Shown piece after piece: positions 12,268 through 14,020 of a stretch of DNA of 64,000 nt (the first letter of the stretch is position 1; every line of letters starts with the position of its first letter). Made by a program: the position numbers and the translations under genes. The stretch comes from Dendrophyllia cribrosa. Lineage: Eukaryota; Cnidaria; Anthozoa; Scleractinia; Dendrophylliidae. The stretch spans positions 33,009,398 through 33,073,397 of the forward strand of contig JAJLRJ010000007.1 in assembly GCA_024195265.1 (NCBI GenBank), given 5' to 3'. Under the pieces are notes generated by a model, which searched no databases, was not told where the DNA came from, and worked only from the letters and a program-made list of their open reading frames with translations.

Positions 12268-13230
12268 TCAGAGATTTTCCACATCACTCAGTGGAACCCA
12301 GGAATTGAATTTATCGGGATATCCTTTCCATTTAACCAAGGCTTTCTTTTTCTTCTGGTCGCGGCGAATAACCTTTTCAATTCGAAACATATTTTGTGTT
12401 GTTCTTTGTAGCTCCGCCTCGTAAAATGATCCAGTTATTTTTTCTCCCAACAGATCGACTAACCTATACGTTACAGGATTTGTGTTCAATATTTCATCGA
12501 TAACAAATATCTCCTCTGTCCAGTTCGGGGTGAAACCTTTGTCGAATATCTTTCGCTTGTATTTTGATATTCTAACCCTGTCGTCAACTTTGAATTTTGC
12601 TGGGTTGTGTTTAGCATAAATCATGTTCCCATATAAATTAGCGAACACTTGTCTCTCATTTTTCTGTTTGCTCGCCTCTGCGGGTGACATCTTAATGCTT
12701 GAATGATAAGTGTTATTATATTGATTCACTAACCTGTCCAGTTTGTCAAAGAAAATTGTATTATTGTTAGCAGAAAACATCTTAAAGAGTTTCTCCTTCA
12801 TCGTCTTGTTCCAACGTTCAACCACAGATGACTTTTCTTCGTTTTCTGTAGTATACAATTTTATCCCATTCTTCTTCAGGAGATCCTTCATAGTTCCATT
12901 GAAAAATTCACTTCCTTTGTCTGTCCAAAGCATTTTCGGTTTTCGCGCCTTCGTGCCGAATATGGATCGGAAAGCATCGGCGACTGTTTGTCCTCGCTTG
13001 TCTTTCAGGGGGCGAATCCAACCGAACTTTGAGAAGACATCGATCACCATCAGGAGGTATCTTATTCCTTTGTTCCACTTTGAAAATCTCCCCATCTCGA
13101 CTAAAGCAGCCGCCCAGATGCTGTCAATCCCATATGCAATAACTCTTCTCTTTGGAAATCTTCTCCTTATTGGCTGGTGAAGTTCATTTGCCAGATTTTG
13201 AGTCCAGCCTTCACTCAAAATCTTTTCCCG
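12268..13230 (-). CDS. Polinton integrase (RVE core + chromodomain), probably expressed by -1 frameshift
   Basis: A retroviral-type integrase core (GIDSIWAAALVEM, LLMVIDVFSKFGW, LWTDKGSEF, NEEKSSVVERW) is followed by an SH3-like region and a C-terminal chromodomain (ALVKWKGYPDKFNSWVP). In this family the first catalytic Asp normally stands in W-x-A-D-L-V; here it is Ala (GCT, 13105-13107), while the second Asp (TDKG) and Glu (VVERW) remain. The frame has no ATG before MGRFSKWNK and no N-terminal domain of its own. It is entered in phase from the phospholipase frame by a -1 shift at A AAA AAC (13230-13236). Expected role: integration of the linear dsDNA; this copy is likely catalytically dead. 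Confidence 0.9.
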   Translation of the reverse strand, partial: REKILSEGWTQNLANELHQPIRRRFPKRRVIAYGIDSIWAAALVEMGRFSKWNKGIRYLLMVIDVFSKFGWIRPLKDKRGQTVADAFRSIFGTKARKPKMLWTDKGSEFFNGTMKDLLKKNGIKLYTTENEEKSSVVERWNKTMKEKLFKMFSANNNTIFFDKLDRLVNQYNNTYHSSIKMSPAEASKQKNERQVFANLYGNMIYAKHNPAKFKVDDRVRISKYKRKIFDKGFTPNWTEEIFVIDEILNTNPVTYRLVDLLGEKITGSFYEAELQRTTQNMFRIEKVIRRDQKKKKALVKWKGYPDKFNSWVPLSDVENL

Positions 13231-13236
13231 TTTTTT
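13193..13236 (-). promoter_or_regulatory. -1 ribosomal frameshift signal: A AAA AAC + 11-bp hairpin
   Basis: In the phospholipase frame the codons are CCA AAA AAC GGG AAA AGA TTT TGA, so the slippery heptamer A AAA AAC (13236-13230) is exactly in phase. Then comes a 6-nt spacer (GGGAAA) and a perfect 11-bp stem, AGATTTTGAGT (13223-13213) with ACTCAAAATCT (13203-13193), loop 9 nt. A -1 slip enters the integrase frame. The 0-frame stop TGA (13217-13215) lies inside the stem. All elements are visible in the sequence; use is inferred. Confidence 0.75.
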
Positions 13237-13874
13237 GGGAGACCGAGGCCCAGTTTTTGTTTTGCATCAATGGTGTTTCGTGCCAAAGCATGACCCCACT
13301 GTCTTTCTTTCCAGGGAATCGCATCCAAAGCGGCGACCATTCTCCTGTCTGCTTCATTTTTACATTTGCGTGGATTTGCTTCTTTTGCGCAAACTGAATA
13401 ATCCACATCATGTTGCATAGCAACTGCATCTGTTTTTCCTGTTGGTTGTTGCAGAATTTCAAGAATCTTTCCAGTTTCATCGAATCTGACTTGTTTTTCC
13501 AATGGGTTATACGGACCAGTGAAGTTATGTCCGGGAAGAGTGAATCCTTTTTTCGGTCTGGGAAGTTTTCCAATCAAGTTATGAACATCCAATCCACTTC
13601 CATCCAAATCAGCTCGATCTGTCTTATATTTTCTGTTTGGTCTTATCGCTGTTGACAGTTGATCCATCATATCGGAAGAGGTTTTGGCAAGAAATGGTTT
13701 CATCTTATCCAGGGCAAAATCCAATGCTTTTTTCTGAGTGTTTTTGTTTCGCAACAATTCACTTGCCCCATATCTCCCCATTTCAACTGTTTTCTTTCCC
13801 AACCATGGAATTGCATGAGCAAAACCAGTCAAAGCCAATTCTCCAATGCCCCCACCTTGTGGGGGCAGATTTAG
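13215..13874 (-). CDS. Phospholipase-A2-like virion protein
   Basis: The frame is open from CTA at 13874 to TGA at 13215 and has no ATG in its first 55 bp; the first ATG is MGRYGASELL, near 13781. The parvovirus-type PLA2 signature is present: calcium-loop-like LPGHNFTGPYNP (about 13538-13503) and catalytic-dyad-like QHDVDY (His-Asp near 13412-13407). In parvoviruses this domain breaches the endosome; in Polintons it is usually fused behind a DUF5679 zinc ribbon. Here the ribbon lies directly upstream in the +1-related frame and joins by a -1 frameshift signal (13847-13880). The C-terminus (GLGLPKNGKRF) overlaps the signal to integrase. Confidence 0.8.
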   Translation of the reverse strand, partial: LNLPPQGGGIGELALTGFAHAIPWLGKKTVEMGRYGASELLRNKNTQKKALDFALDKMKPFLAKTSSDMMDQLSTAIRPNRKYKTDRADLDGSGLDVHNLIGKLPRPKKGFTLPGHNFTGPYNPLEKQVRFDETGKILEILQQPTGKTDAVAMQHDVDYSVCAKEANPRKCKNEADRRMVAALDAIPWKERQWGHALARNTIDAKQKLGLGLPKNGKRF

Positions 13875-13880
13875 TTTCCC
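13847..13880 (-). promoter_or_regulatory. -1 ribosomal frameshift signal: G GGA AAC + 9-bp GC hairpin
   Basis: At the end of the zinc-ribbon frame the codons are CAG GGA AAC TAA. The heptamer G GGA AAC (13880-13874) is in phase. A 6-nt spacer (TAAATC) follows, then the perfect stem TGCCCCCAC (13867-13859), triloop AAG, GTGGGGGCA (13855-13847). A -1 slip enters the phospholipase frame and bypasses the stop immediately after the heptamer. Same heptamer class and spacing as retroviral gag-pro signals. Confidence 0.8.
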
Positions 13881-14020
13881 TGTTTCACGAACCTTGTTTT
13901 TTTAATTCCGCATGAAGCGCAATGACAGAAAAACATCTTTCTCCCATTTTTTGCAGTCATATATCCGGATGGTTCAACGCAACCAGTGACTCTTTTTTCT
14001 TTGACGCAATATGATTCCAT
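13871..14020 (-). CDS. DUF5679-type zinc ribbon, 49 aa
   Basis: ATG at 14020, two bases after the protease stop (14025-14023), and TAA at 13873-13871. It has MESYCVKEKRVTGC, then KNGRKMFFCHCASCG with a CxxC knuckle, then KKTRFVKQGN. In animal Polintons this small ribbon (DUF5679, name from recall) typically sits at the N-terminus of the phospholipase-like protein. Here it is a separate frame ending at a G GGA AAC frameshift signal that leads in phase into the phospholipase frame. Unshifted translation gives the free 49-residue ribbon; shifted translation gives the fusion. Confidence 0.75.
   Translation of the reverse strand: MESYCVKEKRVTGCVEPSGYMTAKNGRKMFFCHCASCGIKKTRFVKQGN

Follow-up and report, generated by a model that had tools for sequence, protein, structure and literature searches.

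Serial programmed frameshifting is best known from retroviruses, among which mouse mammary tumour virus (MMTV) and simian retrovirus/Mason-Pfizer monkey virus (SRV/MPMV) use the slippery heptamers A AAA AAC and G GGA AAC. Among bacterial insertion sequences (IS elements) there are ones with a frameshifted transposase. According to PMC5009743, two -1 shifts occur in the gag-pro-pol region of MMTV and human T-lymphotropic virus (HTLV), and infectious bronchitis virus (IBV) shifts at U_UUA_AAC with a stem 1 that cannot go under 11 bp. For the adintoviruses, a 2024 preprint (PMC11071296) suggests putative -1 shifts in Penton and Hexon-Adenain, which were predicted by software and are presented as hypothetical. 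Here we describe an apparently Polinton-like element of ~19 kb from the coral Dendrophyllia cribrosa, located at about 11032-30327 of a 64-kb stretch of contig JAJLRJ010000007.1 (64,000 nucleotides (nt); hereafter the window, whose numbering is used throughout). On its minus strand a zinc ribbon, a phospholipase (PLA2) and an integrase occupy three frames, each -1 relative to the preceding one.

Judging from the sequence, it is highly probable that two successive programmed -1 ribosomal frameshifts, in the style of Gag-Pro-Pol, yield ribbon, ribbon-PLA2 and ribbon-PLA2-integrase from one transcript. In the proposed mechanism, ribosomes would start at the ribbon ATG and most would end at the ribbon stop. 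A fraction would slip at G GGA AAC, stimulated by a hairpin, and read PLA2; a fraction of the PLA2-reading ribosomes would then slip at A AAA AAC, with a pseudoknot as stimulator, and read the integrase. Stepwise slipping at both junctions would make the integrase the least abundant product, covalently tied to the PLA2 protein.

Both junctions carry what characterizes a -1 frameshift signal, namely an in-phase X XXY YYZ heptamer within a -1 overlap, followed by a 6-nt spacer and a predicted structure (Table 1). At junction 1 the ribbon frame ends as ..CAG GGA AAC TAA, with GGGAAAC in phase and the stop immediately after it, and the hairpin reads TGCCCCCAC-AAG-GTGGGGGCA (13867-13847). An A-run ~20 nt upstream was considered as the slip site and rejected, as it is out of phase. 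At junction 2 the PLA2 frame reads ..CCA AAA AAC GGG AAA AGA TTT TGA, with AAAAAAC in phase. Stem 1 is AGATTTTGAGT-n9-ACTCAAAATCT and contains the PLA2 stop TGA (13217-13215). Its loop ends in GGCTGG, and the complementary CCAGCC lies 15 nt past the stem, from which we predict an H-type pseudoknot that goes beyond what the sequence-only reading of this DNA had described. In the window and close copies the junction-2 site is overlapped by another in-phase heptamer, C CCA AAA, which is absent from divergent families. That earlier reading had proposed two successive -1 shifts of equal heptamer-spacer geometry, and the observation is confirmed and is stronger than first stated. The likeness of the two junctions extends to heptamer and spacer but not to the predicted stimulators, a simple hairpin at one and a pseudoknot at the other.

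Table 1 Features of the Dendrophyllia cribrosa element, in window coordinates (ORF, open reading frame).
Feature	Position	Strand	Remarks
Zinc-ribbon ORF (DUF5679-like), zero frame	13871..14020	-	PF18930 E 2.4e-5, 24.8 bits against a cut-off of 27; 21 protein relatives
PLA2 open frame, -1 to ribbon; post-shift part from 13874	13215..13901	-	PF08398 E 5.9e-9; 1899 relatives
Integrase open frame, -1 to PLA2; post-shift part from 13230	12268..13266	-	PF00665 E 6.4e-10, PF00385 E 5.5e-8
Junction 1 slippery heptamer G GGA AAC	13874..13880	-	Canonical, in phase in 75/84 copies
Junction 1 spacer TAAATC, 6 nt, contains ribbon stop	13868..13873	-	Stop directly after heptamer in 74/75 copies
Junction 1 predicted stimulator, perfect 9-bp hairpin, 3-nt loop	13847..13867	-	
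Junction 2 slippery heptamer A AAA AAC (T TTA AAC in 5/84 copies)	13230..13236	-	Canonical, in phase in 81/84 copies
Junction 2 spacer GGGAAA, 6 nt	13224..13229	-	
Junction 2 stem 1, perfect 11 bp, 9-nt loop	13193..13223	-	Arms 13223-13213 and 13203-13193
Junction 2 stem 2, 3' arm CCAGCC	13172..13177	-	Pairs with loop GGCTGG 13209-13204; predicted H-type pseudoknot
LDGSG, just before PLA2 core	13593..13607	-	Matches the adenain-type consensus as we assume it
Putative adenain-like protease, directly upstream of ribbon	14023..14604	-	Peptidase_C5 E 0.0027, under cut-off; adenain chain 1avp E 0.016
Terminal inverted repeats, 252 nt	11032-11283 and 30076-30327		98% identical, each palindromic

The layout resembles gag-pro-pol of betaretroviruses and deltaretroviruses, with three successive frames, a heptamer and a downstream structure at each junction, and the integrase last; two serial -1 frames ending in integrase, an architecture of retroviral type, are present in the window. 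Unlike retroviruses, this DNA element encodes an integrase of the rve-chromo type, and the matches seen include no reverse transcriptase. In place of a capsid precursor its first frame encodes a short zinc ribbon, its middle frame is a phospholipase, and the putative protease is a separate upstream ORF. As in bacterial IS elements, a DNA transposon would have its transposition enzyme dosed by -1 frameshifting, although those elements are bacterial and use a single shift and an unrelated enzyme. The predicted pseudoknot recalls that of the IBV coronavirus in its 11-bp stem 1, and T TTA AAC is found in five copies here, whereas the element is unrelated to IBV and its stem 1 is A/T-rich. The adintovirus cases come from a related element group and are likewise predicted -1 shifts, but in PMC11071296 they are single shifts in or between capsid-side genes, whereas here two lie in series, lead to the integrase and show both conservation and covariation. 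In the accessible portions of the open-licence PMC literature on Polintons or adintoviruses and frameshifting (including PMC11071296, PMC8097293, PMC3671162, PMC5009743, PMC10120064 and PMC8363768), we found no earlier report of these junctions. The novelty claimed beforehand for tandem frameshifting in Polintons is to this extent intact, but it now stands beside its nearest precedent, the -1 shifts suggested in other adintovirus genes (PMC11071296, a preprint).

Hundreds of copies of the element occur in a single genome. This genome (627 Mb, 22 contigs) supplied the DNA evidence, and other species enter as proteins only. Three integrase searches of it yielded 3046, 3107 and 3039 initial candidates, and scoring covered 121, 127 and 128 of these, respectively; 91 loci were taken and 7 duplicates removed to leave 84 distinct copies, the window's own included. 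The sequence-only reading had looked to conservation of the cassettes outside the window copy, and this was found: the heptamers of junctions 2 and 1 are present in 81/84 and 75/84 copies, divergent families included. Exceptions are L046, L066 and L071 at junction 2 and, at junction 1, the nine copies in which the heptamer was not found (L012, L015, L037, L057, L059, L070, L071, L089 and L091). PLA2 at junction 2 is openly connected from junction 1 in 55/75 copies, and the full layout is uninterrupted in 52/84. T TTA AAC replaces A AAA AAC in the same phase in L030, L040, L045, L069 and L074. The cassettes are kept while their flanks vary, both in the upstream linkers (KQ, KSS, KQGNS, KAKPS) and in the downstream PLA2 sequence. 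A 33-nt junction-1 pattern with few variable places gave 167 + 172 = 339 matches genome-wide, compared with 0 for the reversed control. Three copies (L034, L036, L049) contain a visibly different PLA2, of the HDICY type, between the same two junctions, as if it had been swapped as a module.

The integrase, and PLA2 where calculable, is under purifying selection. For the integrase, the ratio of nonsynonymous to synonymous substitution rates (dN/dS) was 0.115-0.175 in 8/8 comparisons; the three within the main family gave 0.125-0.139, and the five between families had a synonymous divergence (dS) of 0.81-1.03. For the last 120 codons of PLA2 the ratio was 0.07-0.23 in the 4/8 comparisons that were calculable, the other four being saturated. 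Codon-level purifying selection in all three frames had been named beforehand as a check; the comparisons covered these two and show it for the integrase throughout and for PLA2 in half of the cases.

Short pieces at junctions 1 and 2 fold with -17.9 kcal/mol (z -3.85) and -12.8 kcal/mol (z -3.44), respectively, and longer pieces give weaker values (z -1.76 and z -2.79). In Markov-1 sequence modelled on the minus strand of the element, a heptamer followed after 5-9 nt by a perfect stem of at least 9 bp is expected 0.07 times in 19.3 kb (60 runs). The matches to this cassette on the element's minus strand are the two junctions alone, both in phase at ORF junctions. Elsewhere in the window, on both strands, further matches occur at one A/T-run site near 36.6 kb only. 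An Rfam scan of 13100-14060 gave no family above the gathering cut-off.

Covariation was examined on unique cassettes. The junction-1 alignment holds 23, from 26 unique strings minus 3 false matches in the protease, with the aberrant L031 and L088 retained; the junction-2 alignment holds 26, from 27 unique strings minus L066, which is out of register. Junction-1 matches inside the protease sequence of L065, L072, L075 and L077 were rejected as false and not counted. Paired cells make up 89.7% at junction 1, where 10 cells in 2 pairs are changed on both sides, and 96.5% at junction 2, where 8 cells in 1 pair are so changed. None of 500 shuffles reaches the observed paired cells, doubly changed cells or covariation score at either junction. 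One pair of the junction-1 stem is seen as U-G, C-G and G-C and another as A-U and C-G; pair 3 of junction 2 is seen as A-U, G-C and G-U.

Stem 2, taken as contiguous pairing between the loop and downstream sequence, reaches at least 6 bp in 79/84 copies. Shuffled downstream sequence pairs as well in 26, 8, 39 and 18 of 5000 trials for L001, L036, L031 and L090, respectively. A family of 12/84 copies whose loop starts with ACT lacks the CCAGCC/CCGGCC arm; there the loop pairs with CCAATCAG, over 8 bp in 9/12. Loops of the non-ACT type pair over at least 6 bp with the downstream sequence of the ACT type in just 7/200 swaps.

Protein relatives from other species carry traces of the same heptamers. 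Among the 120 listed of the 1899 PLA2 relatives, the tail shows KN in 90 and LN in 24 (114/120 by the script rule), and three of the six missed by the rule also show KN (P0144, P0175, P0213). KN and LN are the zero-frame residues of A AAA AAC and T TTA AAC. Eleven of the 21 ribbon relatives end in GN, the residues of the junction-1 heptamer, after linkers of differing length. Some PLA2 ORFs (uncounted; e.g. P0154, P0159, P0203, P0237) start in the -1 overlap and read GK and then L or R, as GGGAAAC would. Ribbon and PLA2 lie in one frame in P0130, P0214, P0233 and P0234. P0016 was considered as a true in-frame fusion of PLA2 and integrase and rejected, as its frame changes inside PLA2 and an indel is likelier. 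In P0227 a single frame continues from PLA2 into the N-terminus of the integrase; this case is recorded as a lead.

Several observations weigh against two programmed shifts. The number of doubly changed pairs and the number of pair types are within the chance range of the shuffles, and the double changes in the stems trace back to a small number of events passed down within clades. In L020, L031, L088 and L090 the junction-1 hairpin is disrupted or weakened, and variants with a GAAG or AAAG loop lack its innermost pair. Stem 2 is 5 bp or shorter in 5/84 copies (5 bp in L067 and L076, 4 bp or less in L009, L034 and L091), and its swap control is one-sided, since ACT-type loops pair over at least 6 bp with the downstream sequence of other families in 78/200 swaps. 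L017 has no stop after junction 1, and L010 no PLA2 stop after junction 2. In 20/75 copies no open frame leads from junction 1 into the PLA2 frame at junction 2. L015, L030, L032 and L035 were scored as having ribbon and PLA2 in the same frame, and L022, L023, L024, L028 and L066 read late PLA2 into the integrase in one frame. Internal stops occur in 11/121 scored matches, and the copies were chosen from the best protein matches, which biases them towards intact ones. In two relatives, P0016 and P0090, the integrase start position is occupied by Met.

These Met residues also lend themselves to another explanation, in which the integrase, and perhaps PLA2, starts independently by internal initiation at TTG or by termination-reinitiation at the overlapping stop, on one mRNA or on separate ones. 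For most of the 120 listed integrase relatives the called start is the residue of the TTG position, and gene-calling programs may render TTG or GTG as M. In P0016 and P0090 the Met lies inside a longer reading, and an ATG may be present at this place in some lineages. Within the PLA2 frame, residue 41 is an internal Met that precedes the catalytic domain. Reinitiation may occur elsewhere in the block: a stop triplet stands 2 nt before the ribbon ATG (TAA/TGA-AA-ATG, 14025-14018 in the window) in 73/73 readable copies of the 84, and in the window, the one copy where it is confirmed as the protease end, the ribbon ATG lies 2 nt past the protease stop. This spacing perhaps reflects termination-reinitiation or a transcript start. 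However, the usual called start of the integrase (13218-13216) is TTG, a poor eukaryotic start, in 84/84 copies and never ATG, and a genome-wide 24-place pattern counted in its ATG form alone gave 0 matches. Of the separate ATGs in relatives that would have spoken against the earlier reading, none stands at the integrase start in any copy or in the pattern search; P0016 and P0090 may have one. The first Met of the window's integrase frame is residue 58. As this is past residue 54, which we take to be the first Asp of the catalytic triad, a start there could not give a complete integrase core. Independent starts also leave the heptamers, 6-nt spacers and paired structures unexplained, and we consider them unlikely.

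Residue 54 itself (about 13107-13105) is Ala in the window and Asp in 51/52 readable copies, the window being the sole exception. The window copy of the element is probably inactive because of this Ala.

Still less probable, and in our judgement very unlikely, is a frame change brought about by RNA polymerase slippage or by splicing and not by the ribosome. The A6 run at junction 2 would suit slippage, and L022 and L024, with A7 in place of A6 at the heptamer, read through in frame; against this, the junction-1 heptamer has no run longer than 3, and five TTTTAAAC copies hold the phase without A6. For splicing, the loop region of junction 1, AAGGTGGG, looks like a splice donor by the consensus as we assume it, yet the GT is missing from GAAGGGGCGGG hairpins (e.g. 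L036, L049, L062). Neither process predicts a conserved spacer and stem. That the frame breaks are decay, with indels in dead copies and slippery sequences present by coincidence, can practically be dismissed: the copies do have other lesions, such as the internal stops and the window's Ala, but cross-family conservation already contradicts decay, as the junction-2 step and heptamer recur across families at the dS and integrase dN/dS given above, and the cassettes are conserved between variable flanks, with the junction-1 pattern matching 339 times against 0 for its reversal.

If ribbon-PLA2-integrase is made by the two shifts, a protease might process it. An adenain-like protease encoded immediately upstream had been invoked for this, together with a cleavage site between PLA2 and integrase. 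The upstream ORF is in place, but its match is weak (Table 1), and the adenain match ranks under an antibody chain. The proposed site was not found near the PLA2 end; the sole site is LDGSG, which we take to be of adenain type and which precedes the PLA2 core. No further adenain-type site occurs in the ribbon frame, the integrase frame or near the PLA2 end, within the window's three frames. By the same assumed consensus, a site of this type lies 1-45 residues ahead of the core in 93/120 PLA2 relatives.

The assignment of the element as Polinton-like was made on its gene set, comprising the integrase, PLA2, the ribbon, the putative protease, a candidate ATPase and a VLTF3-like gene; polymerase and jelly-roll capsid were not confirmed by family matches. 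The integrase shows the Polinton/Maverick (adintovirus-like) trait of an rve domain with a C-terminal chromodomain, and the terminal inverted repeats (Table 1) are a further trait of this group. The candidate ATPase has its matches among phage terminase and ATPase families. An ORF of 1149 amino acids (26396-29845) had no match to any polymerase family or PDB chain; it shows by eye what we take to be PolB-like motifs, and its polymerase identity is not confirmed. The capsid candidate (16406-17551) had no family match, and its structure model, with a predicted local distance difference test score (pLDDT) of 31, was not used. Searches of viral contigs with integrase and PLA2, and of genome contigs with PLA2, gave no relatives.

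Each terminal repeat (11025-11290; 30074-30328) is palindromic, with arms of ~70-77 nt lying 112 nt apart, and a G-run adjoins the left end. A tandem array of about six 147-nt units lies within the element at 23847-24746. Outside it, a second related element is present in pieces at 4537-5295, 97-98% identical to pieces of 15467-16232. The window also holds a tyrosine-recombinase-like ORF at 7326-8369 (PF00589, PF12012) and, at 59842-64000, a large inverted repeat that runs to the window end, with 619-nt arms that are 99% complementary and 2.9 kb apart.

A broader suggestion, which we put forward tentatively and as rather less likely than not to be correct in full, is that a DNA transposon or virus converged on the Gag-Pro-Pol solution. 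The polyprotein would bring the integrase and a membrane-breaching phospholipase into the particle at a fixed low dose, and PLA2 genes that look unrelated would be swapped between the two modular frameshift signals. The entry enzyme and the integrase would then be delivered together. Two programmed shifts, if they take place, would amount to convergent control of integrase dose in a lineage of DNA transposons or viruses. They would explain the missing integrase ATG in these elements and correct Polinton gene annotation. The question of the Polinton virion would become testable, with the ribbon-PLA2-integrase fusion as a specific protein to seek in particles.

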